Below are positions 33,527 to 63,870 of a DNA stretch of 64,000 nt, piece by piece. The stretch comes from Christiangramia portivictoriae DSM 23547 (GTDB lineage Bacteria; Bacteroidota; Bacteroidia; Flavobacteriales; Flavobacteriaceae): positions 682,001 through 746,000 of the forward strand of contig NZ_AUHF01000001.1 in assembly GCF_000423045.1 (NCBI RefSeq), in the 5' to 3' direction. Position 1 is the stretch's first letter. Every line of letters begins with the position of its first letter. The position numbers and the translations under genes are program-made. The notes beneath the pieces were generated by a model, which had not been told where the DNA came from, made no database searches, and saw only the letters and a list, made by a program, of their open reading frames with translations.

Positions 33527-33610
33527 GCTCGGGTGGTGGAATTGGTAGACACGTTGGACTTAAAATCCAATGACCATTAGGTCGTACGGGTTCAAGTCCC
33601 GTCCCGAGTA
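33527..33610 (+). tRNA. tRNA-Leu (anticodon TAA)
   Basis: 84 bases with a class II variable arm (TGACCATTAGGTCGT). Acceptor GCTCGGG/CCCGAGT (one G-U), anticodon loop CTTAAAA, T-arm ACGGGTTCAAGTCCCGT. Its 3' end forms the first attachment core of two islands. Confidence 0.97.
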
Positions 33611-33616
33611 CTGAAA
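33597..33616 (+). repeat. Attachment core, copy 1 (att, tRNA side)
   Basis: 20-base core: TCCC then GTCCCGAGTACTGAAA; 14 bases lie in tRNA-Leu. Identical to copy 2 at 42306-42325; 18 of 20 match copy 3 at 63848-63867. Confidence 0.88.
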
Positions 33617-33660
33617 AAACCTGTATTTGTCTTGTTATCAAGGCGTTGCAGGTTTTTTTT
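33614..33660 (+). terminator. Terminator of tRNA transcript (island 1 left end)
   Basis: AAAAAACCTG/CAGGTTTTTT stem with a 25-base loop and eight T. It lies inside the island, so the element supplies its own terminator to the tRNA operon. Confidence 0.75.
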
Positions 33661-33668
33661 ATGTCTTT

Positions 33669-33687
33669 TTCCAAACATCTTCCAAAC
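33669..33687 (+). repeat. Candidate integrase arm site, left
   Basis: TTCCAAACATCTTCCAAAC, itself two half-repeats of TTCCAAAC; an exact second copy lies at 42147-42165 near the right end of island 1. Confidence 0.55.
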
Positions 33688-33748
33688 TTTTCCCGATTTA
33701 AGGCTTATTTATATCGATTCTAAATAAAAATATTGCTTATCTAGATTC

Positions 33749-34249
33749 TCAGGGTTTTATACAGTTCAGTACATTTTGGATTGCATCTCCGCGTTTTTTC
33801 TTTATATCGAATTCTATGAATGAGTCTCTAGTTTCAATCCTTGCATGTTTTACAACTAGATTTTGCAAATCTGAAAATTCACCAATATATCGAGTAAGAA
33901 TATTAGCCGTCCAATAAGTCCCCATTGATGTATTTGAACCGTCAGCAATTCCTTCTGACTGTATTTCGAAAGTATAGACATTCTCTTTTTCATCCAAAAA
34001 CATAATATTATCACCTTTGGAATAACTGAAGATTCCAGAATTCATTATGTGAAAGTTAAATGCGATATGATTACCATCTGTAATACCTTGAACTAATATT
34101 GCAGAACTAAGACCACTTTTTAAATTTTGCTTTTTAGTAATTTTTACAGCCTTTTTCGTGTAAGGATCTTTTTCGTTTGTTTCATACTTACAGTCTTGAG
34201 CAATTAGGTAAGATGGAATTAGTAGAATAAATAAAAGAATACGGTTCAT
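33749..34249 (-). CDS. Secreted protein of unknown function
   Basis: 166 residues with an N-terminal signal peptide (LLFILLIPSYLIAQ, cleavage near residue 18). The mature part looks beta-rich, with LSSAILVQGITDGNHIAFNFHI. I recognise no family. First gene on the left arm of island 1; faces the tRNA genes. Confidence 0.6.
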   Translation of the reverse strand: MNRILLFILLIPSYLIAQDCKYETNEKDPYTKKAVKITKKQNLKSGLSSAILVQGITDGNHIAFNFHIMNSGIFSYSKGDNIMFLDEKENVYTFEIQSEGIADGSNTSMGTYWTANILTRYIGEFSDLQNLVVKHARIETRDSFIEFDIKKKRGDAIQNVLNCIKP

Positions 34250-34616
34250 AACTTTGATTTTAGTTGGTTAGGCATTCAATTTAATTCTTTTTTTTAAATG
34301 CAACCGTTTTCTTTACCTGCGCGTATAGACTGTAAAAAACTTGGTTTGTTTCGCGTACGCGTAATGACTTCGGGAAAACCTTTGCAGTATTAATAGGTAC
34401 TTACTGCCTTCGCGCACGTAATGGTCGGAAAGTGTTGTTGTGAATTGTAAGGAAATACTCGATAATACTCGACCTTTTGAAAAAGTTTGATTATTCAAAT
34501 ACTAAGTTTTACTAAGTTCAGGTTCTCTTAGGTTCTTTACATACAGGTTAAAAAATATACTCTACTTCTGGAAATAACTCTTTTTAGTGTTGGAATATCA
34601 ATAGAGTAGGATAGGG
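34250..34616. other. Non-coding gap with two imperfect repeats
   Basis: No credible gene. Two related segments stand out: CGCGTACGCGTAATGACTTCGGG (34351 region, read in part) and CGCGCACGTAATGGTCGG (34410 region). Both hold a short G/C-rich patch and GTAATG followed by (T)CGG in otherwise A/T-rich DNA. Role unknown. Confidence 0.4.
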
Positions 34617-35039
34617 TTAATTGATATGTAATCGGTGGGTTTGTAGTGTTTGAGTATCATCTAAAAAGATAGGTGTTTGCCATTCAATTATTTCAACCTT
34701 ATCCTCAGTATTCCTATAAAAAACAAATACTGAAGGATTCTCAAATTCTAGTTCTGAGTTCTTTGCGTAAGTGTAATACAATTTTAAATTAAAGTCTTTA
34801 GTTCTACTAGAGTCAATTTTAGAAACAGTCCAGGCTTGTATATCTGTTGCCTGTTTACCAAACGTCTTAACTATAACCTCATCATCACTTAAATAGATAG
34901 TTCGATCTATCCATTCAAATTTGGAATTACTTCCAGTCTCTAAATTGTATTCTGTTAGTTTAGATTCATATTTTACTTGAGAAAATGCTATGCCGGTAAA
35001 AAGCATTGATAGTGAAAGTAAAACTATGTTTCGAATCAT
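34617..35039 (-). CDS. Secreted protein of unknown function
   Basis: 140 residues: signal peptide (IVLLSLSMLFTGIAFSQ, cleavage near 20), then a beta-rich mature region (YLSDDEVIVKTFGKQ, PSVFVFYRNTEDKVEIIEW). No family recognised. Its ATG overlaps the upstream gene's stop by 4 bases, so the pair is translationally coupled. Confidence 0.6.
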   Translation of the reverse strand: MIRNIVLLSLSMLFTGIAFSQVKYESKLTEYNLETGSNSKFEWIDRTIYLSDDEVIVKTFGKQATDIQAWTVSKIDSSRTKDFNLKLYYTYAKNSELEFENPSVFVFYRNTEDKVEIIEWQTPIFLDDTQTLQTHRLHIN

Positions 35040-35461
35040 TTTAGAAAACTGAATTTGTCTTTTCTGATATATAAATCTGTAGATCCATCGATCCCGATAT
35101 TATTACCTAATCTTCTGGTATCTATTGCGATAATATGACCTTCTTTTTTTATCTCAATATCTCTTACCATTCTTCTAACTTGCAGGCTGTCAATATTTAA
35201 CTTGTTCAAATGGCTTTCAATTCTAGATAATAGTAATTCTTTCCAGGGTTTATAGTTTCCAATATGCCTCGTTCTAAGACCGTAAACAAAACCTTCATAG
35301 TCAACTACTACAGTCCAAACAATCATACTAACTTCAGTCTTACTATCTGCAAATAGACTTGCAGTAAAATAATAATCCACTTCCACACCGTGCAAAGGGT
35401 TTAATATTTTCGGGCGTTCGTTCTTTTCTACTGTATTACCGTAAGTATTTAATAAACTCAT
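35036..35461 (-). CDS. Hypothetical protein, first of a coupled pair
   Basis: 141 residues from the ATG at 35461 (an in-frame TTG lies 18 bases upstream). Contains DYYFTASLFADSKTEVSMIVW and KIL-NPLHG but no motif I can name; no signal peptide. Coupled with the secreted protein gene that follows. Confidence 0.55.
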   Translation of the reverse strand: MSLLNTYGNTVEKNERPKILNPLHGVEVDYYFTASLFADSKTEVSMIVWTVVVDYEGFVYGLRTRHIGNYKPWKELLLSRIESHLNKLNIDSLQVRRMVRDIEIKKEGHIIAIDTRRLGNNIGIDGSTDLYIRKDKFSFLK

Positions 35462-36089
35462 AACTTGGATATTTTCCAATTCAAAACTAGGAATAAATCC
35501 ATATCAAACATTATTGGATTTTCTATTATTTTGACATATATGATTTTAAATCTTCTTACGCGCGTATTGTTTTGATTCTAGATAATGGTTTTTTGTAGTT
35601 TATCAACCTCTCTTATGATTCCCAAAAACTCTTTTTATGTTAATAAGGTTTTCTCCTTTTTTATGGTTTCGGAAAATTCTTTTATCGTGCGAAAAACTTG
35701 CTTCTTTTTTATCGTGTTAAAAACATAGTTCCCTTTTTTATAGTGTAAGAGAACTCTTCTTTTACCCATGACGCAATCTTGACGTTTTTCTGTTTTAATA
35801 CACGTGCGAACAGATAGTACAGAAGTCTTAATTAGATAGTTAGTTTTAAAACTTGACGGTTAGGTATTGTTAGGTTTTAGAGGTTCCGTTTAGTTATGGT
35901 CTAAATGTCAAGTTTTGACAAGTTCTGAAGGTTACAATGGTATGCTCTGGTTAGCCTGCATTATCATTCTTTATCTAGAACATAGAATTTCTATCTAATG
36001 ATAAGCAATTTGTTCATAGGTCTTTCCAAGGATGTTATATCCGTGCTTTATTCATTCTTATTATTATATTTAAAAAATTTAAGTTTCTA
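35462..36089. other. A/T-rich regulatory-looking gap
   Basis: 628 bases with no gene. It separates the divergent hypothetical operon (-) and the HipA-like pair (+), and holds a phased repeat array at about 35631-35775 (separate entry). No clear TAnnTTTG box before 36090. Confidence 0.5.
35631..35775 (+). repeat. Phased A/T-rich repeat array (iteron-like)
   Basis: At least five, probably six imperfect units resembling CTTTTTTATNGTGTNAAAAAC begin at 35631, 35656, 35679, 35704, 35733 and about 35759. The spacing is 23-29 bases, mean about 26. The last unit is the weakest. Such phased direct repeats occur as replication iterons, operators or partition sites. Confidence 0.5.
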
Positions 36090-37088
36090 ATGCTATCAAA
36101 ACTAACCCAGGAAAAAATAATTAACTATTCAGGTATTCAATTAACGCATGGACAAGTAAAACCAGTAAAAAGAAAAAACTACAATATTCTAACTGAATCT
36201 GTTGGGGGAGATGCGCCAAAGGATGTCATCAAACTATATGAGTATGAAAGGGGCAAAGTTAGAAGAGATAAGCAAAATCTATGGAAGAAGTACATAGCAA
36301 AAATAGGTCACAAATGGTATCCCAATGAGTCGATAACGGAACACTTTTTTACTAGTATAGGTCAATCTTTTGGTATTGATATTGCTAATTCCAAGATTAT
36401 TTATGCTGAGAATTACATTAGATTTTTAAGTGAGCATTTTCATAATTCTGAACAATCTTTGATTCATGGCGCTAATATTTTATCACGCTACATGCTCGAA
36501 TCTGATACTAAATGGCTGGATGAACTAGATCAACAAAGACATTTAAAAGGCGAAATTAACATTAAGGATGTGCTTATTGCTTTAGAGCATGTTTTTCCAC
36601 AAGTAGATATTTTAAATGCTTTTATTGATATGCTTATTTTTGATTGTTTAATTGGCAATAATGACCGCCATTACTACAATTGGGGCGTTGTTACTCACAT
36701 TCGTAGTAGACATGAACCTTACTTTTCTCCTATCTACGATACCGCTAGAGGATTATATTGGAATAGAAGTGAAGAATTTATACTATCTTTGCAAAATGAA
36801 AAAGGAGATAGACAAGATGAGAAGATTGAGAAATACATAAACAATTCAGTCCCTAAGATAAGTATACCAAACAACAAAAAATGTAATCATTTCCAATTGA
36901 TTGCATATTTAAAACAAAATGGTTATATTAATACGGATCACATTAATAGATGGACGTGTACGAACAGTCTAGAGAAAACACTACAAATTCTAGATATTAG
37001 TTTTGGGAAACTTTTCACAACAGAGAGAAGAGAAATAATTAAAAAAGTACTTAATTTAAGGTTTCAAACGCTTAAAAACATTTTATAA
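36090..37088 (+). CDS. HipA-like kinase core protein (HipT-like)
   Basis: 332 residues. The HipA C-terminal kinase signatures are present: DCLIGNNDRHYYNWGV (about 185-200; catalytic D, N and R as in the HipA NxDRH loop) and SPIYDTARGL (about 213-222; metal-binding Asp). The upstream KKYIAKIG may hold the ATP-contacting Lys. It lacks the N-terminal HipA domain 1, which is instead encoded by the next gene. Known relatives phosphorylate proteins such as aminoacyl-tRNA synthetases or act as toxins; the target here is unknown. No HipB-like DNA-binding gene is adjacent. Confidence 0.75.
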   Translation: MLSKLTQEKIINYSGIQLTHGQVKPVKRKNYNILTESVGGDAPKDVIKLYEYERGKVRRDKQNLWKKYIAKIGHKWYPNESITEHFFTSIGQSFGIDIANSKIIYAENYIRFLSEHFHNSEQSLIHGANILSRYMLESDTKWLDELDQQRHLKGEINIKDVLIALEHVFPQVDILNAFIDMLIFDCLIGNNDRHYYNWGVVTHIRSRHEPYFSPIYDTARGLYWNRSEEFILSLQNEKGDRQDEKIEKYINNSVPKISIPNNKKCNHFQLIAYLKQNGYINTDHINRWTCTNSLEKTLQILDISFGKLFTTERREIIKKVLNLRFQTLKNIL

Positions 37089-37090
37089 TT

Positions 37091-37501
37091 ATGTTGAAGC
37101 AATTTAAGAAATATATCAAATCACAAGCAAAGACTCAAGATACAAAGGATTTACCTTGTATATATGAGCAGATCAATCGTAATCCTAAATTCCAATTAAA
37201 ACATCAAGAAAATATAATTGGTTATTTAAATTATGAGAATTCTTCATGGAATTTTTATTATTCAGATTGGTTTAAAAATCAGAACGATTTAAAGCCTCTT
37301 TTCGAATTTCCATTGAAGGAGAAGAATTACACATCTAAGGAGTTATGGCCATTTTTTGAAAGTCGAATTCCATCCTTAAAACAGCCTAGAATTCAAAATT
37401 ATCTTGAATCTCATCCTATGGATTCTAATGATAAGGTTAAATTATTACAGGTTTTTGGCATTACCTCTATAAACAATCCATACAAACTGTTGAGTTTATA
37501 G
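37091..37501 (+). CDS. HipA N1-domain-like protein (HipS-like partner)
   Basis: 136 residues. The order GYLNYENSSWNFYYSDW, PLFEFPLKEKNYTS, LWPFFESRIP, and GITSINNPYKLL follows the layout of the HipA N-terminal subdomain 1 (GxL..., F.Y...W, PLSxSLPL, FFxxLLP, final DLL). Separated from the kinase gene by 2 bases, so coupled. In HipBST systems the free N1-like protein HipS neutralises the HipT kinase; here the gene order is kinase first. Assignment rests on motif order by eye. Confidence 0.6.
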   Translation: MLKQFKKYIKSQAKTQDTKDLPCIYEQINRNPKFQLKHQENIIGYLNYENSSWNFYYSDWFKNQNDLKPLFEFPLKEKNYTSKELWPFFESRIPSLKQPRIQNYLESHPMDSNDKVKLLQVFGITSINNPYKLLSL

Positions 37502-37521
37502 AATAAACAATTTAGAATGAG

Positions 37522-37555
37522 ATAGTCCTAACTTAAACGTTAGGACTATTTTTTT
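37522..37555 (+). terminator. Terminator after HipA-like pair
   Basis: ATAGTCCTAAC/GTTAGGACTAT perfect 11-bp stem, 6-base loop, seven T; overlaps the tail of the convergent replication gene. Confidence 0.9.
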
Positions 37556-38828
37556 GATGTAAAGTGAAAATTCTAAATTGATTGGTAGGGTACAGTTTAT
37601 CTTGCTTTAGTTTCAAATTAGAAGATTTGTTTCTAATGTTATGCGCAATCTCTTTAATTTGAGTTTGGTAATCATCATCTTTCCATACTGAAGATAAGAA
37701 CTTACGTTTGACCTCATCAAATACCTTCTTATCAGTTTTGAAATAGTACTTGAGTCCTGTATGACTGAGTAAAATACTATCCTCTTTTTGCATTGAAATA
37801 TTCATTCCTGTTATCGGACAGATATTAACTTCTGAATTAGTGCAGTTTCGTTCTTTATATATAGTCGAAATTGCACCAATATTATCATCTTGCTGAGGTG
37901 TCGAAATTGCACCATTTAGACAAAGTTTAAGTTTGTCCTGGATCAATTGTAGTACTTCCTTATGGATATTTTGACCTACTTTATCCAGTAGTTTGTAATA
38001 CTTTTTCTTTTCGAGATTGTATTTATTTCTATTATTGTTTTGAAGAGTTTTGAACCAAAAGTGATTACTTAAATACTTCATGATTTTACTAGAATCTTGA
38101 TCATTAATAAGTTCAAAATTTACATTATGGTACAAGATTAAGACCGATTTAAATTCTTTAATTACCTCTTCAGCAAGCCGATTATAGATTTTAAAATTCA
38201 TAAGATCAGATAGGCTATAAATTCCGAATCGATTAAAGTAAGCGCCTTGTTTGCTTTTTACTTCGAATCTAAATGTATTCTTATCGGTATAGTTAGGAAA
38301 GTGCAAACCCTTGGCATACGCTTTAATAATCTTATAACTATTCATTTTACCGTTCCGTCTAGCCTTATAAGCCTTTTTACTATATAACAATCCCGGATCA
38401 GTTCTAAATTCGTTCTTTTCATGGTAGGAAAGGAATGATACAAAATCTTCAATTGGTTCTTTGATAATAACGTTTACTCCAAATTCGATATTAACAATCT
38501 TACATTCCTCTGGATCTAAATGGAAAATATTTATAAACTCATTGAGTACTTTCAGACAATCTACGATCGTAAAGTCATTAGCATTATGCAAATTATTATT
38601 GAAAAAATAATGCGGTTTAAACAGAATTTCCAACTTGTCAGGATAAAAGCAAAATAAAATTCCTTTGTAATATTTAATTTCCTTAGTTAATATCTCTTCC
38701 GAATTTTCGAAATTTCTATTATCGATTTTCAAATAGTCCTTTTTGGTAATCCAGATTAGTAGATCATTGTTTTTAAAGGATTCAATTATTTGAGGATTTA
38801 AAATCCATATTTTAAGAAAGTCTAACAT
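37533..38828 (-). CDS. Probable replication initiation protein of island 1
   Basis: 431 residues from the ATG at 38828 (a second in-frame ATG lies at 38879). Segments ECKIVNIEFGVNVIIKE, YSKKAYKARRNGKMNSYKIIKAYAKG and NTFRFEVKSKQGAYFNRFGI resemble the gene II/X-type and Rep_trans replication proteins, where a Tyr/Lys-rich strand follows an RxE motif. The C-terminal part has CPITGMNIS and looks like a zinc-knuckle or HTH region. Often found beside int/xis in small flavobacterial elements; not proven. Confidence 0.5.
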   Translation of the reverse strand: MLDFLKIWILNPQIIESFKNNDLLIWITKKDYLKIDNRNFENSEEILTKEIKYYKGILFCFYPDKLEILFKPHYFFNNNLHNANDFTIVDCLKVLNEFINIFHLDPEECKIVNIEFGVNVIIKEPIEDFVSFLSYHEKNEFRTDPGLLYSKKAYKARRNGKMNSYKIIKAYAKGLHFPNYTDKNTFRFEVKSKQGAYFNRFGIYSLSDLMNFKIYNRLAEEVIKEFKSVLILYHNVNFELINDQDSSKIMKYLSNHFWFKTLQNNNRNKYNLEKKKYYKLLDKVGQNIHKEVLQLIQDKLKLCLNGAISTPQQDDNIGAISTIYKERNCTNSEVNICPITGMNISMQKEDSILLSHTGLKYYFKTDKKVFDEVKRKFLSSVWKDDDYQTQIKEIAHNIRNKSSNLKLKQDKLYPTNQFRIFTLHQKNSPNV

Positions 38829-38837
38829 GATTTTTCT

Positions 38838-38918
38838 TATATTTGGGTGTAGGGTATGCGTTGCCACGTTGCCTAACATTTGAACAACATTTAGAGGGGT
38901 TATGCGCCCCTCTTTTTT
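38838..38918 (+). ncRNA. Candidate antisense RNA opposite the rep leader
   Basis: On the plus strand TATATTTG (TAnnTTTG, 38838-38845) is followed about 48 bases later by a terminator hairpin (38894-38918), with no plus-strand gene. The predicted RNA of about 65-70 bases would be antisense to the leader of the minus-strand rep gene, as countertranscribed RNAs in plasmid copy control are. No good TTG was seen at the -33 distance. Confidence 0.4.
38894..38918 (+). terminator. Plus-strand terminator in the rep leader
   Basis: GAGGGG/CCCCTC stem with TTATGCG loop and a TCTTTTTT tail in the plus direction only, between two minus-strand genes. Confidence 0.7.
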
Positions 38919-38957
38919 GTTTTATTAGTTAGCCTTTAGCAGTTCGTAAAAGAATAT

Positions 38958-39365
38958 TTACTTCGATTTTAAAGCAAATAGATATGCATCAAGAATCAAT
39001 GCATTACGGTTGCGGGTATAAAAGTCTTTATAATAAAAAATAGTTACCTCATCTTGATTATGTGAAAAGTGAACAATAAGAAGATGTTTCTTATAATTAC
39101 TGTCACCGAAATAAATATTTTTTCTTTCAGTTTGAAAAAGTCCTGTTATAGGTTTACTCCATTTTTTATCAATCCGCTTCTTAAGCCAGTATTCTGGCAT
39201 TGACTTAGCGAACTGCCTATCTTTTTGAATATTTAGTGCCTCCGATAGTTGATTTTCACCACCGTTGAGGTTCTTTATTTCATAGTGTTTTACACTACGA
39301 TACTTTCCAGGGTTAATTTCCCTATAGGTGTGAATTATTGGTTTTGGATATTCTGTTGCCATCAT
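38958..39365 (-). CDS. Hypothetical protein of island 1
   Basis: 135 residues from the double ATG at 39365/39362. The frame reads on upstream into the HTH gene but the ATG 7 bases after that gene's stop is the natural start. Basic, with MPEYWLKKRIDKKWSKPITGLFQTERKNIYFGD; no family recognised. Coupled behind the excisionase-like gene. Confidence 0.6.
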   Translation of the reverse strand: MMATEYPKPIIHTYREINPGKYRSVKHYEIKNLNGGENQLSEALNIQKDRQFAKSMPEYWLKKRIDKKWSKPITGLFQTERKNIYFGDSNYKKHLLIVHFSHNQDEVTIFYYKDFYTRNRNALILDAYLFALKSK

Positions 39366-39372
39366 TCGTAGT

Positions 39373-39645
39373 TTAAAGTTGAACAATAGCACGTTCCACT
39401 TCAGAACGTTTGTAGTAAACTCTATTTCCAATACCAAACCGTTTCAGTCTGCCCGACTTACTCCAATTATGCACAGTAGAAATATCTACTTTAAGCATTT
39501 TGGCGACCTCAGCACGACTTAAATACTCTTCGGGTTCTTTGGGTTGGTATTGTTTCTTTAGTTCGTCTAATTGGTTTTTTACGCCTTTTAAAATTGATTC
39601 CTGAAGTTGTTCAGGCGTAGTCTGAATAAATTGTACTTGTGACAT
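39373..39645 (-). CDS. Excisionase-like helix-turn-helix protein
   Basis: 90 residues. N-terminal helix with LQESILKGVKNQLDELKKQ, then a HTH_17/MerR-type domain EYLSRAEVAKMLKVDISTVHNWSKSG and the wing RFGIGNRVYYKRSEVERA. This is the usual small DNA-binding protein beside tyrosine recombinases in Bacteroidota elements, likely a recombination directionality factor or regulator. Confidence 0.8.
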   Translation of the reverse strand: MSQVQFIQTTPEQLQESILKGVKNQLDELKKQYQPKEPEEYLSRAEVAKMLKVDISTVHNWSKSGRLKRFGIGNRVYYKRSEVERAIVQL

Positions 39646-39750
39646 GATCTGTATTATTGATTACGTCACAAATGAATGGAATTGGGTATCGTATCGTACT
39701 CATAGTACGGGTACAGTATTGATTAAATTTAACTATAGATTACATCTAAT

Positions 39751-40584
39751 TCAATTATTTATCCAGTTTTCTAATGCAATTGTAAGTCTATTTAGAAATG
39801 GTGTTTTGTCTATAGTTCTACCTTTTATAGTTTGTAACTTTTCTCTTTTGTCTACTTTCAAATTCAATGCTTTGCTAAAATGTTGAAAGACTTCCTTTTC
39901 GCTTTTATAGGAATGAATAACCTTTGCCTGTATTAAAGATTTTATTATTTCAGTCAGATCAATTTCAGACAAGTCTATCTGAAATGGTAAATCTTTGTAT
40001 CCTGTTGTATGCGAGTCATTATTACTCTCCTTTCTAGTTTGGGTATATAAATTTCTACCTAATTGTGCCTGAGACTTATCAATTTGTATATGAGCCAACT
40101 CAGAATCAATAACGTCTTGTGGTAATTTTTCCTTTAGAAAGATTATATTCTTTTTTACGGAATAGTATATTTTACTTTTATGCTGACTATTTAGATACTG
40201 ATAAAATAAGAACATTTTAGTATAACCATTTAGGTCATTGATTTCTTTAAGGATAAAATCAATTTCGTCTGCATCGATAAAATTTTCGAGAAACTCCTTT
40301 TTTAAACTATTGTAATGTTTTTTATAAATCTTTAAAGGACAGCAATAGAAATAAATATTATCAGAAACTAGCCATTTATATTCAATAGCAAAAGTATCTT
40401 GTAGATTTTCGTAGTAAGTAGAATTATTCTCAAAGAGTGTAAACTCGAACATGAAATGCTTAAGTCCTTCAAAAGGGTCACCCTGAGAAGGAGGACTATG
40501 ACTTTTCAAAGTAGGTTGTTCACTTTCAAATTGTTTCATTATCCGCATACATTTCGGAAAATTTTCTACAATGCTTTTTTTCAT
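39751..40584 (-). CDS. RteC-like mobile-element protein
   Basis: 277 residues from the ATG at 40584; a TTG at 40605 is an alternative. Helical throughout; the C-terminal LTEIIKSLIQAKVIHSYKSEKEVFQHFSKALNLKVDK followed by FLNRLTIALENWI fits the RteC pattern of Bacteroidota conjugative and integrative elements, where RteC controls excision genes. Weak match by eye; a structural or replication-associated role is possible. Confidence 0.45.
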   Translation of the reverse strand: MKKSIVENFPKCMRIMKQFESEQPTLKSHSPPSQGDPFEGLKHFMFEFTLFENNSTYYENLQDTFAIEYKWLVSDNIYFYCCPLKIYKKHYNSLKKEFLENFIDADEIDFILKEINDLNGYTKMFLFYQYLNSQHKSKIYYSVKKNIIFLKEKLPQDVIDSELAHIQIDKSQAQLGRNLYTQTRKESNNDSHTTGYKDLPFQIDLSEIDLTEIIKSLIQAKVIHSYKSEKEVFQHFSKALNLKVDKREKLQTIKGRTIDKTPFLNRLTIALENWINN

Positions 40585-40606
40585 CTTATTTATATACGTT
40601 GCCAAA

Positions 40607-40640
40607 TGTAAAACCCTCTTAAATTGATTTAAAAGGGTTC
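40607..40640 (-). terminator. Terminator after integrase gene
   Basis: GAACCCTTTTAA hairpin with AGAGGGTT and a TTTT tail on the minus strand, 140 bases after the integrase stop and just before the RteC-like start. Confidence 0.5.
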
Positions 40641-40780
40641 TAAAGTTACTAATTTATTATTTCCAGATCCGAATCAATTCGCATCCGAACTTTTGGACTG
40701 ATGAGGTTTCGGTTCAATTTTCCGCGCGTTACTTTTAATTCTTGTTTGGTTTTCTCTAAGCGTTTTAATCAGATCCTCTG

Positions 40781-42094: not shown

Positions 42095-42146
42095 AATAAG
42101 TAATTGAACATTTGAACAGTACTAAATTAGACTATTCTTAAACAGT

Positions 42147-42165
42147 TTCCAAACATCTTCCAAAC
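42147..42165 (+). repeat. Candidate integrase arm site, right
   Basis: Exact copy of the 19-base TTCCAAACATCTTCCAAAC at 33669-33687, placed 140 bases before att core copy 2. Confidence 0.55.
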
Positions 42166-42365: not shown

Positions 42366-42375
42366 AGACCCTTGC

Positions 42376-53461: not shown

Positions 53462-53471
53462 AATCTAACCT

Positions 53472-56528: not shown

Positions 56529-56537
56529 ATTTTTAGT

Positions 56538-57323
56538 ATGGAAATTTCTAATCATGAAATAAAGAAGGCACTTAAAATTAAGAATGCTGTCCAGTATTAT
56601 CTTGATATGACTAAAGAGGTTAATATTAGATCAACAGATGTTTTTCCGTATTTGGTGAGAAAAGGCATTTTTGTTCAGGATAAAAATAATGGACTTTTCT
56701 TCAGAAGATTTCTGAAAAGGTTATATAAGGCTAATATGCTCAAATCGCTTATACCTCAATGCACATATGTACCTGGAATTAATGGTGAAATTTTCGGAGA
56801 ATGGTATTTCAATATTAACTCTTCGAGATCTCCAACGAAAAATGCTGAATGTTCAGAAGCGAAGAATGATGAACCCATCATAATTACAATTGAAGATGCT
56901 AGAAAGACTTTGTATGATTTAATAGAGGGAAGAAATCCAGATACCGGAAAATTAATTGATAGACTTGAAGATCCGAATCTCTATAAAATTAGCCAATCAC
57001 TGAAAATTTTCACCGAAATAGAGGATAATGTTGATGAATTTAAAAACAAGCCGGTTAAGGATATCCAAAGTAGATCTAATAGAGATAAAACCTTAAATTC
57101 TCTTCAGGTTGATCCAGAAGTTGAGAATAACCCTGTGTATTCAGTTGACGAGATTAGAAAATCTCATGAAAATGCATATAAACCATGGACATCAGAAGAG
57201 GAAACTCATTTAACCGAATTGTTTGAACAAGGTTTTACAATAAAAGAAATTGCCCGAAAAATGAAAAGACAGAATGGTGGGATAAAATCTAGACTAAGAA
57301 AGTTAGGGTTAAAGGTTAAATAA
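56538..57323 (+). CDS. Putative DNA-binding protein with C-terminal SANT/Myb-like helix-turn-helix
   Basis: 261 residues. Middle contains EDARKTLYDLIEGRNPDTGKLIDRLEDP; the end (about 215-261) is PWTSEEETHLTELFEQGFTIKEIARKMKRQNGGIKSRLRKLG, an SANT/Myb-like or sigma-4-like HTH. The N-terminal 90 residues look like a helical winged domain (FFRRFLKRLYKANML). Starts 9 bases after hsdR, so probably the last gene of the operon. Family not recognised. Confidence 0.6.
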   Translation: MEISNHEIKKALKIKNAVQYYLDMTKEVNIRSTDVFPYLVRKGIFVQDKNNGLFFRRFLKRLYKANMLKSLIPQCTYVPGINGEIFGEWYFNINSSRSPTKNAECSEAKNDEPIIITIEDARKTLYDLIEGRNPDTGKLIDRLEDPNLYKISQSLKIFTEIEDNVDEFKNKPVKDIQSRSNRDKTLNSLQVDPEVENNPVYSVDEIRKSHENAYKPWTSEEETHLTELFEQGFTIKEIARKMKRQNGGIKSRLRKLGLKVK

Positions 57324-57357
57324 TATTTTCTTATACATTTTTACAAACCTCATTTGA

Positions 57358-57636
57358 ATGAGCCTAAACATTACGCTTCAACAAGGCGGCATGCGTGAAT
57401 TCGAAAGAACTGGAATCTATCCTGAGTATTTACTTTTCAACCTGTCCGGCACTCGACAAAGCTGGAGAGTAAAAGTTAAGAAGAAACCTCAAAGAGGAGT
57501 TCTTAGAAGTAAAGGAGTGGTCGTTTACGAATATGAGTTTGATGGCTATTTTTGTAAATTTAGGGAAGTTTATAAAGTTGGGAGTTTTTCTAAATGGAAA
57601 GAACCAGAGTTTATGATTACAGAAATGCTAGACTGA
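57358..57636 (+). CDS. Small hypothetical protein
   Basis: 92 residues, basic; SWRVKVKKKPQRGVLRSKGVVVYEYEFDGYF suggests a small beta-barrel. ATG start; follows the SANT-like gene. No family recognised. Confidence 0.45.
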   Translation: MSLNITLQQGGMREFERTGIYPEYLLFNLSGTRQSWRVKVKKKPQRGVLRSKGVVVYEYEFDGYFCKFREVYKVGSFSKWKEPEFMITEMLD

Positions 57637-57835
57637 AAATAGGAAATATTTTACTGGTCACTAATAATCAAAACCCGGTTTAGATTAGTATTAGCATGTC
57701 CAAAAAAGCTTTATTACACACTCCAAAGTGAATAGGCTCAGCATCAAATGGAAGATACTTTCTTACAGACCAGATACAAACAGACGAGGTATTCTACTAG
57801 ACGGTTGTGAGAGGAGGTAATAAATAATCAAATTA

Positions 57836-57862
57836 AAAATGCCCGCTCTAGCGGGCATTTTC
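57836..57862. terminator. Bidirectional terminator
   Basis: AAAATGCCCGCT/AGCGGGCATTTT stem with tight CT loop and T-tracts on both strands, between the restriction locus (+) and the EcsC/HNH cluster (-). Confidence 0.85.
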
Positions 57863-57871
57863 ATAAGCAGT

Positions 57872-58561
57872 TTACTGTCCGGTGATTATGGGCATCAATT
57901 CTGACTTCAATTCTTCATATTCTTCTTCCTCTATAATACCCAGATCTAGCAACTCTTTCGATTCTTTCAGTTTAGCTATTGCTTCATCACGGGTTAGTGG
58001 TGCATTAGTGCTTTTAATCTCACCAGCCAAGACTGCTTTTTCATAATCTGTTACAGACATGTATTTGTTTATTCCAAAAGCTCGACCGTTCGGTTCGCCT
58101 AGCAAAATTTGAACTGCAAGAGGCTTTTTCTTACTTCCTTTGTGGAATAGCGAGATTTCAGAAATTAAAACTACTTCACCTTGCATGTTTTGCCCTGCAT
58201 TTGAAGGGCCTTCTCCTCCTAGAGCATTCATAACGTTTCCAAAGCCTGCTGGTTTTCCCATAATGATATTGGAAAAGGAACTTGCGGTTTTTGATTTGGC
58301 TTTGGCTGCGCCAAAAGTACTGCCAGCACCAACGGCTGTTGTATTCGTTGTGCTTCCAGAAGGGGTTCCTATCATTAGGGTATCACCCACTTTCAATTCA
58401 CTGCCATCCGCAGCGGTGTAAGTGGAAACGGTTGTGCGGTTTTTTATATTTCTAAAAAATTCTGAAGTCTGGGTCTCCTCAAATGTGATCGCTTCAAGGT
58501 GATTTTGACATACTACGTTTAGAGATGCCAATAGAAATAATGTGAGTAAAAATTGTTTCAT
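57872..58561 (-). CDS. Secreted protein with C-terminal SHOCT domain
   Basis: 229 residues from the ATG at 58561 (the frame opens further upstream without a sensible start). Signal peptide QFLLTLFLLASLNVVCQ, then a Gly/Ser/Ala/Thr-rich low-complexity stretch (VGAGSTFGAAKAKSKTASSF). The C-terminal SHOCT-like hairpin is TRDEAIAKLKESKELLDLGIIEEEEYEELKSELM. SHOCT domains mediate oligomerisation of small membrane or secreted proteins. Role unknown; last gene of the cluster. Confidence 0.7.
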   Translation of the reverse strand: MKQFLLTLFLLASLNVVCQNHLEAITFEETQTSEFFRNIKNRTTVSTYTAADGSELKVGDTLMIGTPSGSTTNTTAVGAGSTFGAAKAKSKTASSFSNIIMGKPAGFGNVMNALGGEGPSNAGQNMQGEVVLISEISLFHKGSKKKPLAVQILLGEPNGRAFGINKYMSVTDYEKAVLAGEIKSTNAPLTRDEAIAKLKESKELLDLGIIEEEEYEELKSELMPIITGQ

Positions 58562-58613
58562 TAAATAAAAATTTGGTTGATTATGCTTATTAATTTGATT
58601 TGTTAATTCAAAT

Positions 58614-59063
58614 CTATTTAAATCTTTTTGATAATATTTCTTGGACTTTTTGATCAATACCTTTATCTGCAGCTATAGCGGCCTTTTTCGCAAGTTCTAA
58701 ATCAATTTTGTGCTTGGTGGTATTTACCCTATTAGATAGCCAATCCTCCAATCTCATTTTTCCTTTTGACTGATTAATGCTACGCAAAGTAACTGCTACA
58801 TTCTCAGAACAATTCACTACTTCTGCGATCTCAAAATTTGTCAATCGATCGCGATATGCCATGAACACGTATTCTGAAGAACGAATATGTTCATAATCAT
58901 AGCGGTCGCCACCACGTAGAGTTTCCCCGGTGTAGCAATCGGTATAAAGTGCTCTCCCATCACCACCTCTTTCTAGAGCTTTCTGATGTAATTGAGCTTT
59001 CACTTTTGCAAAGAGTAAATCTATTTCATGTCGGTGGTAGGGGCGGGTTGGATCGGAATTCAT
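58614..59063 (-). CDS. Putative HNH nuclease
   Basis: 149 residues. YTDCYTGETLRGGDRYDYEHIRSSE (about 40-64) has the C..(T)G turn and a D-Y-E-H motif, and VVNCSENVAVTLRSINQSKGKM (about 83-104) has the Asn and N-x-SKG ending of HNH/McrA-type nucleases. The helix after it is LEDWLSNR. No signal peptide. It could be a defence nuclease or toxin; the call is by motif and the metal-binding set is not proven. Confidence 0.55.
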   Translation of the reverse strand: MNSDPTRPYHRHEIDLLFAKVKAQLHQKALERGGDGRALYTDCYTGETLRGGDRYDYEHIRSSEYVFMAYRDRLTNFEIAEVVNCSENVAVTLRSINQSKGKMRLEDWLSNRVNTTKHKIDLELAKKAAIAADKGIDQKVQEILSKRFK

Positions 59064-59103
59064 TAGTTCTAGCAGAGAATAAACTTCAGATTAAAATAGT
59101 GTA

Positions 59104-59745
59104 CTATTTAGCATTAATAAAGGTTCTTCTAGCAGTATTACCTATTAAGTTAGTTGTTACCCCATCAAATGTTCCACCTATCAAACCTCCGATAAGTGGT
59201 ACAGCTTTACCCAAATTAATTGCGCCTCTTTGCCCAAACTTAGTTAAGAGCCTGAATCCAATTGCTTGATTTATTCTTGTAATAGTTTTACCAGAAATAT
59301 TAGCAATCATTTTTTGAGATACTTTCTGACCCACTACAATTCCTATATCTTTTAGAATATCCTTTGCTGTATTTCCGGCCATACAGACATAAACCAATGA
59401 CTTAACTCTATCATCTCTCAAATCATGCCCTCCCATATGAGCTATTGCGGCAATCATTCTAATTTGTACATAAATAACGCTTGCTAAATTTGCTGGTATA
59501 GCAACTGGCATCGTCAATAGTCCACCTAAACCGGTGACAAATCCACTTGTTGTCGCTTTGGTGTTTTGCCATCTTATGAGGGAATTACAATTTTCTACTT
59601 TTGTTTTTCCATTACCTTTATAACTTTCAGCCATTTCTTGAGCAGAATCGAAGCCGGGCATGCCATTAATAGCTTTTTCATAAGAATAGTCTAAAGCTTT
59701 CAAAATCATTCCTTGGTTTAACTTTGACTTAGTTTTTTGTTGCAT
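59104..59745 (-). CDS. EcsC family protein 2
   Basis: 213 residues. Core of the EcsC family (PF12787): ATTSGFVTGLGGLLTMPVAIPANLASVIYVQIRMIAAIAHMGGHDL read in parts, then a C-terminal VPLIGGLIGGTFDGVTTNLIGNTARRTF. Amphipathic/hydrophobic Gly-rich helices suggest membrane association. EcsC was named in Bacillus beside an ABC exporter, but its molecular role is unknown. 20 bases from the first EcsC gene. Confidence 0.8.
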   Translation of the reverse strand: MQQKTKSKLNQGMILKALDYSYEKAINGMPGFDSAQEMAESYKGNGKTKVENCNSLIRWQNTKATTSGFVTGLGGLLTMPVAIPANLASVIYVQIRMIAAIAHMGGHDLRDDRVKSLVYVCMAGNTAKDILKDIGIVVGQKVSQKMIANISGKTITRINQAIGFRLLTKFGQRGAINLGKAVPLIGGLIGGTFDGVTTNLIGNTARRTFINAK

Positions 59746-59765
59746 AATTTTAAATTAGAAGTTTA

Positions 59766-60545
59766 TTATAGTGATGCGTATTCTTTTTCGATGAATTCAG
59801 GCGAATATTTCTTTTCGAGTCTTTTCACAATAAAATGACCTCTGGCCATATCTTGAAAATGATCAATAAAGAGAAGATTTAAAGCTGCACCTGTAGCTGC
59901 TCCAATTACAGGAACAGCTTGTGCAGCAGCCTTTTCTGTAACTTGTATTCCAAATCTACTGGCAACAGTAGTAAAAAACTTAACTAGGGCCGGTGCTCCT
60001 TCTTTGGTTAATCCATTTTTCGCAATGTGCTCCGCAGCCATAGTCAGTTGTTGAGCAAGTAGGGCCCTAGTTATATAATAGCCACTTTCGGTACCATCGT
60101 CACTTTCAGATTTACCTCCTAAAGCTAAGACTTCGACACATGCAAGCTTTGTTTCTGCATTATCCAGATTTTGGTTTTCAGATCTTGCTATGTCTGCGAT
60201 AGATCGCATCATAATTGTGGTTGAAACAGGTAATTCAACAGCTAAGCCTGCAAATCCAAAAAATCCACCTGCACCCCCAGATATTGCTACCGTTGCTTTA
60301 TGCCAGATATTTGAGGATTTTTCACCTGGCTTATTTTTCATTGTAAATAATGCTGCATCGGTCGATTTAGTAATAGCTTTGTGAGTAAGTTCTACAATTT
60401 TACTATTCCAATTCTTCGGTAACAATTCAAATCCTTTTTCCAAAGGCATTCCAATGTAATTTGTGATTTTTGCTGCCAAACCTGGATTCTCAAGTAAATC
60501 TTTGGCTTTCTTTAAATCTGTTAGTTCAGGTTCTGTAAGTTTCAT
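59766..60545 (-). CDS. EcsC family protein 1
   Basis: 259 residues. Same architecture as its neighbour: helical N-terminus, Gly-rich core ISGGAGGFFGFAGLAVELPVSTTIMMRSIADIARSENQNL (read in parts), and C-terminal VPVIGAATGAALNLLFIDHFQDMARGHFIVKRLEKKY, the EcsC end signature. Likely membrane-associated. Two EcsC paralogues in tandem suggest a heteromeric complex. Confidence 0.82.
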   Translation of the reverse strand: MKLTEPELTDLKKAKDLLENPGLAAKITNYIGMPLEKGFELLPKNWNSKIVELTHKAITKSTDAALFTMKNKPGEKSSNIWHKATVAISGGAGGFFGFAGLAVELPVSTTIMMRSIADIARSENQNLDNAETKLACVEVLALGGKSESDDGTESGYYITRALLAQQLTMAAEHIAKNGLTKEGAPALVKFFTTVASRFGIQVTEKAAAQAVPVIGAATGAALNLLFIDHFQDMARGHFIVKRLEKKYSPEFIEKEYASL

Positions 60546-60726
60546 ATTTTTAGAGTAGTTAATAAGTTTGAGAAAGCATTAAAACTTAGTATATGTTTTT
60601 AATGCTTTCTTTTATTTTTAGTAAAGATTTTCAGGTACAATTACTATGGATACCTGATATTATAAAAAGATAATTCAGGGAATAGTTATCCACGTAGTTC
60701 TATTCTTATATTATGGTGATGAATTA

Positions 60727-61047
60727 TTATAAAAGCTTTGCTTTTCTTAGTTGAAATTCGTCATCAGTTATAACTCCCTTGACCTTTAATCCATGCAATC
60801 TTTCTAGTTCATCCGCTGTATTTATACCTGAATTATTAATCTTACCCCTATTGTATTTGTCATTAAATGCGTTTTCATTCATAGTGAGAAAAATAATAAA
60901 ATCGATAAAGGATATTACAAGAGGAATGAATGTCCAACAGAATAGTAGATACATTATACCAAAGCCACCTTGTCCAAGATAGAATCGATGTACACCGATA
61001 CCTCCTAAAAGAAATGCTAGAATTGCAGCTGTAGTTTTGTTTTTCAT
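60727..61047 (-). CDS. TM2 domain protein with SHOCT tail
   Basis: 106 residues. TM2 domain: AILAFLLGGIGVHRFYLGQGGFGIMYLLFCW and WTFIPLVISFIDFIIFL (two membrane helices joined by the G-x-H-R-F-Y turn). The C-terminal SHOCT-like motif is ADELERLHGLKVKGVITDDEFQLRKAKLL. Small membrane protein of unknown function; 181 bases upstream of the EcsC pair on the same strand. Confidence 0.85.
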   Translation of the reverse strand: MKNKTTAAILAFLLGGIGVHRFYLGQGGFGIMYLLFCWTFIPLVISFIDFIIFLTMNENAFNDKYNRGKINNSGINTADELERLHGLKVKGVITDDEFQLRKAKLL

Positions 61048-61533
61048 TTGTTAATAGATTTAGTAGTTAGTATTAATCGGAGCATATAAATCACTTCGTC
61101 TCAATTGATGCGTTTAATTAATGTTTATGAAGGTTCCTTTCTAAACATAGCCTCAGCAAGATCTTCGTTATTGTATGACTAAGCAACAGCAACATAGCGA
61201 CAAGAGCCGACGCTTTTAGATGAACTTTAATGCAATCATTATTATTAAGACAAATTCATCTAGTGCATATAGATGATTAGTTGCTAAAACTAAATCTTTT
61301 GTTAAACCAATAAGACCTCGATTAGTAAACGTAGGGGTTACGCTGATAACCGTTTTCAATATCACCTTAAATTAAGAATTAAGCAGAATAAGCCACAAAA
61401 AATTTGAGAGCTTAGTGAACTTGTAGTTACCTCTACCGGAGTTGTAAAAAATTGAAATACTTTAAATATGGTTATTGCTAACGTCACCTTTTGTCCATCT
61501 CAATTTCTATTCTTGTAGAAATTAATTACAAAA
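61048..61533. other. Non-coding gap
   Basis: 486 bases, no credible gene. A short frame near 61400-61450 reads ELSELVVTSTGVVKN between stops, which resembles a TonB-receptor beginning, but it is too short to call. Otherwise A/T-rich with no clear repeats. Confidence 0.4.
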
Positions 61534-61995
61534 TTGAACATTTTTTTAAAATTGATTTCAAAGGAATTCTGGACTTCTTTGCTTAGGAAAAGTTTGGAAA
61601 TATTAAAATTACAACCACTATCGAAAAGAAAGCAATTGTCGGAATTCAAAATCAAAAATAAGAAAACATTATTATGGCTCGATGACATGCGAGATCCAAA
61701 TGATATCAGGATGGATTGGCTAGCTTACAGCCCTATTGGGCGTGAGGTTGAAGTTGTGTGGTTAAAGGATCATTACAAGTTTAGAAACTGGATTCAAGTG
61801 CATGGATTGCCAGATGGTATTTGTTTTGATCATGATCTGGGAAAGGATACTCCGACTGGATATGACTGCGCTAAGTGGCTGGTAAACTATTGCCTGGATA
61901 ACAAATTATCACTGCCATTGTGGAGCTCACAAAGTGCTAATCCTGTAGGGAAAGCTAATATCAATAGGCTCCTGAGGAATTTTATAAAGAATTAG
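61534..61995 (+). CDS. cREC (cyclic-phosphate-processing receiver-like) domain protein
   Basis: Up to 153 residues; start uncertain (TTG at 61534, no ATG before the domain). The domain runs from LLWLDDMRDPNDI through ICFDHDLG and GYDCAKWL to SSQSANPVGKANINRLL, the cREC receiver layout with DD and FDHDLG acidic sites. The usual His in (I)HSANPxG is Gln here (SQSANPVG). Family function is unproven; receiver-like nucleotide or phosphate signalling has been suggested. Confidence 0.72.
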   Translation: MNIFLKLISKEFWTSLLRKSLEILKLQPLSKRKQLSEFKIKNKKTLLWLDDMRDPNDIRMDWLAYSPIGREVEVVWLKDHYKFRNWIQVHGLPDGICFDHDLGKDTPTGYDCAKWLVNYCLDNKLSLPLWSSQSANPVGKANINRLLRNFIKN

Positions 61996-62003
61996 GAGAG
62001 TAA

Positions 62004-62903
62004 CTAAATATCATATTGTGCTAAAGTAGATTGAAGATCTTCAATTATATCTCTTTGAAAATTCACTGGTTCGATAATCTTGACCTTATTGCCATAGGAT
62101 AGAATTTCCATTTTAAAATCGAAAGTAGGGCGTATGTAGTAGCTAAAAGTAATCTCTTCCTTAGTTTTATTGATCAGGGTTTGGCTATGATGCAGGGGAA
62201 GGGATTCTACATACCTACCTTGTTCGGGAGTAAATGAGAGAATGATTTCAGTAGCTTTTTCATCGGTGCCATTAATGATTCCAAAGCTTTCTTTGAATTC
62301 CTTGTGAACATTATAAGGGACTGGTTGAAATTTAATGGGACTTATGTTTAATTCCTTAATACGATCTAAGGAGAAATTTTTGATCCTGGAATCCCTTTGA
62401 TCTTGCCCAATGAGATACCAGCGGTTCTGCGCTTCTTTAAGAGCAATTGGTTTAACCTTTCGTTGTGTTTCAGAACTATCCCAAAACTTGGTGTAATTAA
62501 ATTCGGTAACTAATCTATTCTGAATGGCATGGATCAGGCCGGCCATATGTTCTGTGCCCAGGTGTCTTCTCTCTTCAAAAACAAGGCAGTCCGCGAAACC
62601 TCTAGAAAGTTTGATTGCATTTACAATCTCGAAATTTTCGCGCAGTCGTCGGGTTTGTAGATCTTCTGTATCTTCTTTGATGTAATACTTATTACAACTT
62701 TTATCTGAAGCAATTTCTATTTCAAAGTTAGACGCGATCCCTTTTAGATCTCTTTGCAGAGTCCTTTGAGAAGTGAGTAGGTTATCTTCAATGGCATCTG
62801 GGTCTAAAGATATCTCATCCTGTAACTCCTGGTAGCTCATAGGTCTTCTTCTCAACAAAGAGATGATCTTGGTGTATCTTTTCATGGTTTGGTTTACAGA
62901 CAT
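62004..62903 (-). CDS. WYL-domain transcriptional regulator (YafY family)
   Basis: 299 residues. N-terminal winged HTH (TKIISLLRRRPMSYQELQDEI), linker, then WYL domain (about 135-215) with KPIALKEAQNRWYLIGQDQ and FSLDRIKEL, and a C-terminal WCX-like extension. WYL regulators sense nucleotides or DNA damage-linked ligands and are common in defence islands. Its ATG is 10 bases from the esterase stop on the same strand. Confidence 0.9.
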   Translation of the reverse strand: MSVNQTMKRYTKIISLLRRRPMSYQELQDEISLDPDAIEDNLLTSQRTLQRDLKGIASNFEIEIASDKSCNKYYIKEDTEDLQTRRLRENFEIVNAIKLSRGFADCLVFEERRHLGTEHMAGLIHAIQNRLVTEFNYTKFWDSSETQRKVKPIALKEAQNRWYLIGQDQRDSRIKNFSLDRIKELNISPIKFQPVPYNVHKEFKESFGIINGTDEKATEIILSFTPEQGRYVESLPLHHSQTLINKTKEEITFSYYIRPTFDFKMEILSYGNKVKIIEPVNFQRDIIEDLQSTLAQYDI

Positions 62904-62913
62904 AGGTTAAATT

Positions 62914-63402
62914 TTAATGGCATATTTTAGAAAAGAAGGTATCCAATTGTTTCTCAAATACCGAAACCGGTATTCTATGACCTAACATTGGATCTGTATT
63001 TATATTCAATTCAGAAGTCGTTAGATGTTTACCAAGAAATGTCATTGTTTCCAATGGATCTACAACGTCATCATTTCCACCTAAAAGGATCTGTTTACAA
63101 GCTAACCCTTTTAAATAAAAACTTTTAAAATTAGTAAGTCGATAATTGGATAACGGGGGGTTGAAAATCAAAGCTGGTCTGCCAATATTTTCGGAAATGA
63201 TGTAGGCATTCAATCCGCCCATGCTACTACCAATTACTACATTGAATTCGGTATCCAGATAATGCTCTAAAATTTCTACTGGTTGAATATGCTGATGGTT
63301 GTAATTAATATCAGGTGCGTATACATTACCATATTGCTCTAAGATCTTTCTTTTTTCCTTACTGAGTTTGCTTTTCAGTCCGTGGAGATATAAAATATTC
63401 AT
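62914..63402 (-). CDS. YqiA-like alpha/beta hydrolase
   Basis: 162 residues. ILYLHGLKS at the start, nucleophile elbow VIGSSMGGLNAY (Ser about 61), Asp in GGNDDVVDPLET and His in MLGHRIPVS, the layout of the YqiA/UPF0227 small esterase family. Substrate unknown. First gene of a two-gene operon with the WYL regulator. Confidence 0.85.
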   Translation of the reverse strand: MNILYLHGLKSKLSKEKRKILEQYGNVYAPDINYNHQHIQPVEILEHYLDTEFNVVIGSSMGGLNAYIISENIGRPALIFNPPLSNYRLTNFKSFYLKGLACKQILLGGNDDVVDPLETMTFLGKHLTTSELNINTDPMLGHRIPVSVFEKQLDTFFSKICH

Positions 63403-63655
63403 TCGGTTAAATTAAATGTTCAATACAAATTAAACAACAGTACGCGACAAATAATGTCGTTTGGTTAGAAAAGTAAGCTTTTGCTTACTTTAAGGCGCAG
63501 CCATTGATCAGCCATTAGTTCCAGGCAAAAAGCTAAACGATAATTTACTTCTGATATCAGTTGATCAGGCGAGCTATGAGTAGTAATGAAAACGATGTAA
63601 AAAGGAGAAAAATTTAGAGATTTTAATCTTGCGATGCTTCCATTTCAAGATTGGT

Positions 63656-63870
63656 TTACCTCACCGGTAAATATAATACTGTCTTCTGGACCATATCATA
63701 GAAAGGCATGGTGCCACCAGATTTAGGCCTCATATTCCTAACCGGCTGATACCTTTCTTGAAATTTTAATATCAAGTTTTCTATATCTTTCCTGGTAGCG
63801 GGCTTATTTTCAGCCTTGGTAAATACTGCTTGTACACCGTTAGCTAGTCCAGTCCCGAGTACTAAAAACC
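63656..63870 (-). pseudogene. Truncated gene remnant at the island edge
   Basis: A start-less open frame of about 70 codons reading FTKAENKPATRKDIENLIL and MRPKSGGTMPFYDMVQ, ending at a TAA at 63656-63658. It runs through att core 3 to a stop just beyond, so the 5' part is missing. Coding-like composition; no family recognised. Confidence 0.45.
63848..63867 (+). repeat. Attachment core, copy 3 (right end of island 2)
   Basis: 18 of 20 bases match the tRNA-Leu core, including GTCCCGAGTACT without change; mismatches at positions 4 and 17. Followed by a terminator hairpin like the other two cores. Confidence 0.75.

Follow-up and report, generated by a model that had tools for sequence, protein, structure and literature searches.

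The tRNA-Leu locus and its three cores

The window analysed here is a 64-kb stretch (64,000 nucleotides) of the genome of Christiangramia portivictoriae DSM 23547, a marine member of the Flavobacteriaceae (contig NZ_AUHF01000001.1, positions 682,001 to 746,000), and all coordinates refer to it. It contains a tRNA-Leu(UAA) gene (33527..33611, + strand, assigned with ARAGORN), the integration target of two islands that probably entered its 3′ end one after the other. A tRNA-Gly gene (33439-33512) is its upstream neighbour. The 3′ end of the tRNA-Leu, together with a few bases beyond it, forms core 1 (33597..33616, +). This 20-mer has an exact copy, core 2 (42306..42325, +), which bounds segment 1 on the right and segment 2 on the left, and a further copy with two mismatches, core 3 (63848..63867, +). 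Core 3 matches 16 of 17 bases when the alignment is moved slightly into the tRNA. The last 19 bases of the 20-mer, with up to three mismatches allowed, occur at exactly three places in the window where 0.02 are expected, and none of 100 shuffles gets to three. Recurrence of the cores by chance is thereby ruled out.

The cores delimit two segments. Segment 1 (33617..42305) is a complete, compact tRNA-Leu element of 8.7 kb, and segment 2 (42326..63847) is a defence island of 21.5 kb without an integrase. Both are read as foreign DNA with many genes for defence against viruses. Segment 1 has a GC content of 31.3% and segment 2 of 37.0%, against 40.7% to the left of the tRNA.

The genus comparison covered 24 Christiangramia genomes. 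The tRNA-Leu and a metal-ATPase gene share one contig in 20 of these, with a spacing of 6 to 80 kb, which marks the locus as a variable hotspot; in the remaining four they lie on separate contigs or are incomplete. The stretch from tRNA-Leu to the ATPase gene was taken from 22 of the 24 genomes, that is, the window genome and 21 others. Two of these stretches (G012 and G004) are partial, and G019 and G020 were left out of the locus comparison. The near relatives G022, G012 and G017 each have an ATPase 82% identical to that of the window genome. The wider sample consisted of 299 Flavobacteriaceae genomes, in which relatives of the segment 1 integrase were counted at E <= 1e-60.

Terminators and repeat pairs at the cores

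Behind every one of the three cores stands a hairpin with a T-run, predicted to terminate transcription. The terminator after core 1 (type C; 33612..33660, +) is attributed to segment 1. That after core 2 (type D; 42321..42366, +) belongs to the left end of segment 2 and is 94% like the terminator at core 2 of genome G001. The terminator after core 3 (type A; 63863..63907, +) is read as the displaced native one. The folding energies are -22.5, -18.4 and -17.2 kcal/mol for cores 1, 2 and 3, with z = -8.1, -6.8 and -5.2. An earlier note on this DNA, made from the sequence alone, had placed the core repeats at the coordinates given above, an integrase in the first segment only and a hairpin terminator at each core, renewed with each insertion. 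All three claims are supported: the three places and the three hairpins were recovered, the terminator types match different relatives, and a Pfam tyrosine integrase is present in segment 1.

A hairpin with a T-run follows all 31 genus cores that were found without a hairpin filter, and 34 of 35 when four further cores are added. The four are one from G011 and the first and middle cores of G010, all from a hairpin-filtered search, and the tRNA-side core of G001, from blastn. It is the terminator of this last core that the hairpin test missed, due to a substitution in the stem. Random places show the same signal in 524 of 9600 cases, and open reading frame (ORF) ends in 29 of 386.

The terminator types point to different sources. 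The stretch 33590-33692, around core 1, aligns to the same place in G010 with 76% identity over 105 columns. Across the core 2 junction, 119 bp align at 84% to G001, where core 2 begins an island that also lacks an integrase. Among 17 elements from 16 genomes, integrase identity goes with identity of the terminator on the tRNA side (r = 0.65, p = 0.0002); for the terminator at the distal core, the control for host relatedness, there is no correlation (r = -0.006, p = 0.49). The middle core of G010 was counted twice, as the distal end of the first element and the tRNA side of the second. As only the tRNA-side terminator tracks the integrase, it is taken to come with the element, and the displaced one to be that of the prior occupant. 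Locus L179 (genome G275) is the sole one of the 17 elements with a near-identical terminator (95%) at both ends.

The distribution of the type A terminator was also recorded. Thirteen genomes have no second core in the fetched stretch, and in six of them (G022, G012, G011, G021, G015 and G004) the terminator after the tRNA is of type A. The other seven carry type D (G009), type E (G002, G003, G006, G013 and G018) or a type of its own (G008). Type A also follows the distal core in G017, G007, G023 and G005. The proposition that type A terminators are always native is ruled out by these seven single-core genomes and by the presence of type A at element ends.

Cores may also stand close together. 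In G014 (locus L014, positions 1268-1815 of the oriented tRNA-side region), four tRNA-Leu cores lie 155-164 bp apart, with two alternating terminator types and near-identical spacers, forming a mini-array of attachment-site ends without elements. In G235 (locus L147), two tRNA-Leu-type cores ~172 bp apart carry two different terminators in tandem beside an integrase.

Inside the cores lie short repeat pairs. The left pair of segment 1 (33669..33687, +) consists of two TTCCAAAC units 11 bp apart, and the right pair (42147..42165, +) is identical to it over 19 bp. The left pair of segment 2 (42377..42395, +), ~65 bp from the core, reads TTCCCCAC / TTCCCGAC. In the 17 integrase-bearing elements, the best repeat common to both ends is 65-76 bp inward of the core on the tRNA side and 147-167 bp inward of the distal one. 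The pair has an uncorrected p < 0.05 against shuffles in 15 of the 17 (only 0.03-0.05 in G007, G001 and L175); the second element of G010 (p = 0.09) and L172 (p = 0.84) miss this level, with repeats at the same places. Scoring windows at fixed positions, chosen after the repeat positions had been seen in the shuffle test, gave a mean score of 16.2 for the pair within an element (8 for L172), 7.3 between elements and 6.0 (maximum 8) for windows shifted by 400 bp. An element's own right window was the best or tied match in 11 of 17 cases; the other six were matched better by another element of the set, which has a similar repeat type as judged by eye.

Repeat pairs of this kind look like arm-type integrase sites, to which the integrase would bind. 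The left pair of segment 2 differs in type from that of segment 1. It is closest to the pairs of elements in G176 (L182) and G275 (L179), and the left pair of the G001 island is near-identical to it.

Gene content of the two segments

From its far end towards the tRNA, segment 1 encodes a tyrosine integrase (40781..42094, -; Pfam), an RteC-like protein (39751..40605, -; Pfam), an excisionase-like HTH_17 protein (39373..39645, -), two conserved proteins and cargo. The integrase gene lies ~200 bp from the distal tRNA-Leu core and reads towards the tRNA. Residues R264, K291, H365, R368, H390 and Y399 are invariant across seven aligned sequences and are presumably catalytic. The HTH_17 gene is present in all eight genus elements found. 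The slot between it and the integrase, filled here by the RteC-like gene, is variable in content: a gene occupies the same position in the eight elements, yet these genes are nearly unalignable among them. The conserved genes comprise a small one (38958..39437, -), with relatives in four other elements, and one for a 448-aa protein with no family assigned (37533..38879, -), with relatives in five other genus elements. The cargo includes a split HipA pair (36090..37501, +; Pfam, and PDC-M03A in PADLOC), in which the C-terminal kinase-like part precedes the N-terminal part.

For the 448-aa protein, Pfam, NCBIfam, PHROGs and PDB sequences gave no convincing match and viral contigs no relative, and its single-sequence structure model (mean pLDDT 33.5) was unusable. 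It is a possible replication or transfer gene product. No relaxase or conjugation family was recognised by Pfam in 10 segment 1 proteins or by NCBIfam in eight of them, and oriT was not searched for. In these scans segment 1 shows neither a relaxase, which with oriT defines an integrative and mobilizable element (IME), nor the conjugation genes of an integrative and conjugative element (ICE). The integrase had no match among plasmid records at E 1e-20.

Seven of the 22 genomes have elements with an integrase of this family at the site, eight in all, and the integrase is tRNA-distal in each. The nearest is in G010, where the integrase is 80% identical to that of segment 1 and the right end of the element matches at 73% over 323 columns. 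In the wider sample, integrase relatives were found in 31 of 299 genomes, the window genome included. Among 30 loci fetched, that of segment 1 and 15 of the 29 others have a tRNA-Leu-type core with a terminator beside the integrase start, and 14 do not. When the 15 were extended, a tRNA was reached in nine (anticodon UAA in six, CAA in three); the other six ran to the contig end or to 20 kb without meeting one. The nine elements so delimited are 4.5 to 10 kb long, and all have a terminator after both cores.

Segment 1 has the hallmarks of a tRNA island, namely an intact tRNA with its 3′ fragment as a direct repeat, an integrase and an unoccupied site in relatives. It also has the layout of the Flavobacteriaceae tRNA-Leu integrase family delimited in this analysis, with a distal integrase, paired repeats and a terminator after each core. 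A second relative of its integrase is encoded in the same genome (G000:C5:93625-94908, 36% identity), with no tRNA gene and no convincing tRNA-Leu core within the 9 kb fetched.

Segment 2 carries a type I restriction-modification cluster (45063..56528, +) that comprises HsdM, HsdS, a protein with a NO VEIN C-terminal domain, two unknowns, a GmrSD-like protein and HsdR. A right-hand module follows (58614..63402), with a small conserved gene, two EcsC genes and genes for a TM2/SHOCT protein, a cREC receiver, a WYL regulator and a small esterase-like protein. WYL regulators of defence islands have been described (PMC9122601). The cREC, WYL and esterase genes are found at this locus in G001 and G005 with other cargo in front, and the WYL-esterase pair is found away from tRNA-Leu in G007, G008, G014, G016 and G021. 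In these five loci (L125-L129) the counterpart of the pair at 61534-63402 is accompanied by cREC in three, and in G007 it lies <3 kb from the tmRNA gene.

The last gene of segment 2 is a 64-codon fragment (63659..63850, -) of a small protein family with weak zinc-finger similarity, seen in the relative in L164 below the Pfam cut-off. Relatives of the fragment occur in 31 of the 299 genomes, the window genome included, and several of these have two copies ~20-50 kb apart on one contig. Such paired copies perhaps mark the ends of elements.

Searches for a relic of an integrase or helix-turn-helix (HTH) gene in segment 2, with 16 family queries, found none; the best integrase match (E = 0.067) and the best HTH match (E = 0.011 over 51 aa) were both weak. 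What segment 2 does have is the left half of an attachment site, with core, terminator and repeat pair, while the integrase and the right pair are missing. Measured against the definition of a cis-mobilizable element (CIME), its cores are present, its integrase is absent and its right site is without arms. It looks like a decayed, CIME-like member of the element family of segment 1, with an uncertain right boundary.

Order of insertion and relation to known elements

The terminators, repeat pairs and gene content together argue for the successive entry of two tyrosine-recombinase islands at a single tRNA-Leu(UAA) 3′ end, the type D island first and the type C element second, and this is considered probable. 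The 21.5-kb block is placed first and the 8.7-kb element second because the type C terminator is like that of the G010 element, type D is like that of the G001 island and type A is like that at the unoccupied sites of G022 and G012. In G022 there is one core only between tRNA and ATPase, followed by a type A terminator as after core 3. G012 agrees, with a single core and type A after the tRNA; its contig ends ~5 kb further on. When the flanks of the window locus (tRNA and the sequence after core 3) are joined, they match the contiguous G022 site in 166 of 179 columns, mostly within the tRNA, and core with terminator alone match at 87.5% over 56 bp. An independent stack of two elements, both with an integrase, is present in G010.

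The course of events may be outlined as follows. The first arrival, with a TTCCCCAC-type arm site and a type D terminator, would have settled directly after the tRNA and moved the existing type A terminator, the native one in this clade, to its own far end. This resident would have carried, or later gathered, the type I restriction cluster and the WYL-cREC-esterase module, and would have lost its integrase and right arms. The compact 8.7-kb element, with its TTCCAAAC-type arm site and type C terminator, would then have inserted between the tRNA and the resident. The attachment site of such an element would be ordered as integrase, arm pair, tRNA 3′ end, terminator and arm pair, and the integrase would recombine the chromosomal tRNA end with the copy inside this site. 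Since the copy carries a terminator, integration would rebuild the whole tRNA gene with its stop signal and displace the old terminator, and a later element would repeat the process at the same place. In this manner the tRNA would keep a terminator after every insertion, as one is renewed at each core. Either segment, or both together, may still be able to excise.

Several observations weigh against this order, or against segment 2 as a single island. By itself the type C terminator is 62% identical to that of G010 and 60% to the next best, a narrow margin. Type A is also found at element ends in G001, G007 and the second element of G010, so that type does not prove nativeness. The 45 bp past the core 3 terminator, compared with those of other type A sites, gave a best uncorrected p of 0.036 among 15, which is not significant. 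In G022, ~5 kb of other genes lie between the terminator and the gene that follows core 3 in the window genome. The earlier note had predicted an empty site that joins tRNA-Leu directly to the sequence after 63867, and G022 agrees with this up to the terminator and departs from it beyond. At the right end of segment 2 there is no repeat pair at the family position, Pfam recognised no integrase among the 20 proteins of the segment, and a truncated gene like those of mobile elements adjoins core 3. Two scans of G001 and G005 found no core to the right of the WYL-esterase module, although weak hairpins can be missed in them. Segment 2 may thus be fused with another insertion at its right end.

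The 8.7 plus 21.5 kb accretion array of the earlier note is supported by the comparison as two insertions in one tRNA-Leu site; that the 21.5 kb are a single island is less certain, the right arms and integrase being absent. The associated claim that everything between the outer cores is accessory fits the gene content; the module at 58.6-63.4 kb occurs in relatives as well, partly at this locus and partly elsewhere.

The strongest alternative is that two or more older insertions fused to give segment 2. Its left part would be of type D, core 3 would be the distal end of another element that lost its middle to a deletion, and only the outer cores would be left. This is a real possibility, judged to fall a little short of even chances. 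A repeat pair and a terminator mark the left end of segment 2 and are lacking at the right end, the small-protein fragment is cut exactly at core 3, and WYL-esterase pairs occur elsewhere in five relatives. In L162 a relative of the fragment is one gene away from an integrase-like ORF, which scores 25.2 bits in Pfam, below the cut-off of 27.1. Against a fusion, core, type D terminator, right-hand module and type A terminator stand in the order of a single island, and G001 has the type D terminator and the same module at the same locus.

It is unlikely that segment 2 is ordinary variable chromosome, with core 3 an unrelated relic and segment 1 the only insertion. What lies to the right of the last core does differ among many relatives, and genes of the module are present there with no third core found. 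Nevertheless, segment 2 shows at its left end, as G001 does, the complete anatomy of a left half at the family distance, and the type A terminator follows a distal core in four other genomes as well. About equally unlikely is the arrival of both segments as one 30.2-kb composite already stacked elsewhere: transfer of stacked composites has been described (PMC5704250) and the outer cores would still permit it, but the type D island of G001 stands behind a different element, whose integrase is 38% identical to that of segment 1, and the type C element of G010 stands in front of another resident, pairings that indicate independent combination of the two parts, and the segments differ in GC content.

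The elements at this locus have counterparts among known mobile elements. NBU1 of Bacteroides has a single tyrosine integrase (IntN1), a tRNA-Leu target and paired arm repeats. Segment 1 resembles this general description, and no relaxase or primase was recognised in it. Excision of NBU1 is reported to require further genes and oriT (PMC5704250). The 10K genomic island of Riemerella anatipestifer is 10 kb long, has one integrase with an intN1-like domain and lies at a tRNA gene, and its excision and reintegration were demonstrated by PCR (PMC6764341). Its target is an Arg-tRNA and its repeat is 53 bp, unlike segment 1.

Accretion of CIMEs with IMEs or ICEs has been reported for ICESt1-related elements, in which a decayed element retains attachment sites and no integration genes and its site is reused by a newcomer (PMC5704250). 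The locus is similar in that the products are stacked and the newcomer probably integrated at the site of a decayed resident. It differs in its tRNA-Leu target and Flavobacteriaceae host, in the damaged right site of the resident, in the terminator that each element supplies, and in that no conjugation gene or relaxase was recognised in the proteins tested. The table of the Islander collection gives 125 tandems of two or more, and 3919 islands (PMC4383910). The same pattern is seen here, with the tRNA restored at one end and a displaced 3′ fragment at the other. Islander needs an integrase in every member of an array, and therefore segment 2 would not be called; a tandem in this sense is found in G010 and not in the window.

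In ICEKp1, int adjoins the tRNA and uses its promoter, and the leader stem-loops are described as only attenuating (PMC13023037). Integration moves the native tRNA terminator to the far end there, as is proposed here. In contrast to ICEKp1, a full replacement terminator stands after the tRNA in the window, and the integrase gene is tRNA-distal and directed towards the tRNA. Given this direction, a terminator after the tRNA would also stop tRNA transcription from entering the element in antisense. At the same site in G017 (L009-L011) there is a different and larger insert of 41 kb, with a phage-type integrase adjoining the tRNA and a distal core that repeats ~60 bp of the tRNA. A hairpin still stands between tRNA and integrase, which makes this insert a mixed case when compared with ICEKp1.

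Stacking on a decayed element (PMC5704250), tandem tRNA islands (PMC4383910) and an excising tRNA island in Riemerella (PMC6764341) are already known. Literature searches, mostly at title level, found no title on replacement terminators borne by elements. The present analysis adds a terminator carried by the element itself, backed by statistics, and a way to read the order and origin of insertions from the types of terminator and repeat. On balance, though with less assurance than the succession of two insertions, these features describe a compact Flavobacteriaceae family of tRNA-Leu elements. Its members would hold the tRNA 3′ end and a terminator of their own inside the attachment site, with lineage-specific paired arms at near-fixed distances, and each insertion would renew the terminator, keep tRNA transcription out of the element and leave a record of order.

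The element-borne terminator indicates that repeated insertion need not harm the transcription unit of an essential tRNA. ICEKp1 contrasts directly with this, as it shifts the terminator away and exploits read-through (PMC13023037). The arrival order of stacked islands and the source of blocks without an integrase are usually hard to tell, and at this locus the terminator and repeat-pair tags point to both. If the reading as an element family is true, terminator and repeat types would tell the order of insertion and the integrase lineage behind islands that no longer carry an integrase.

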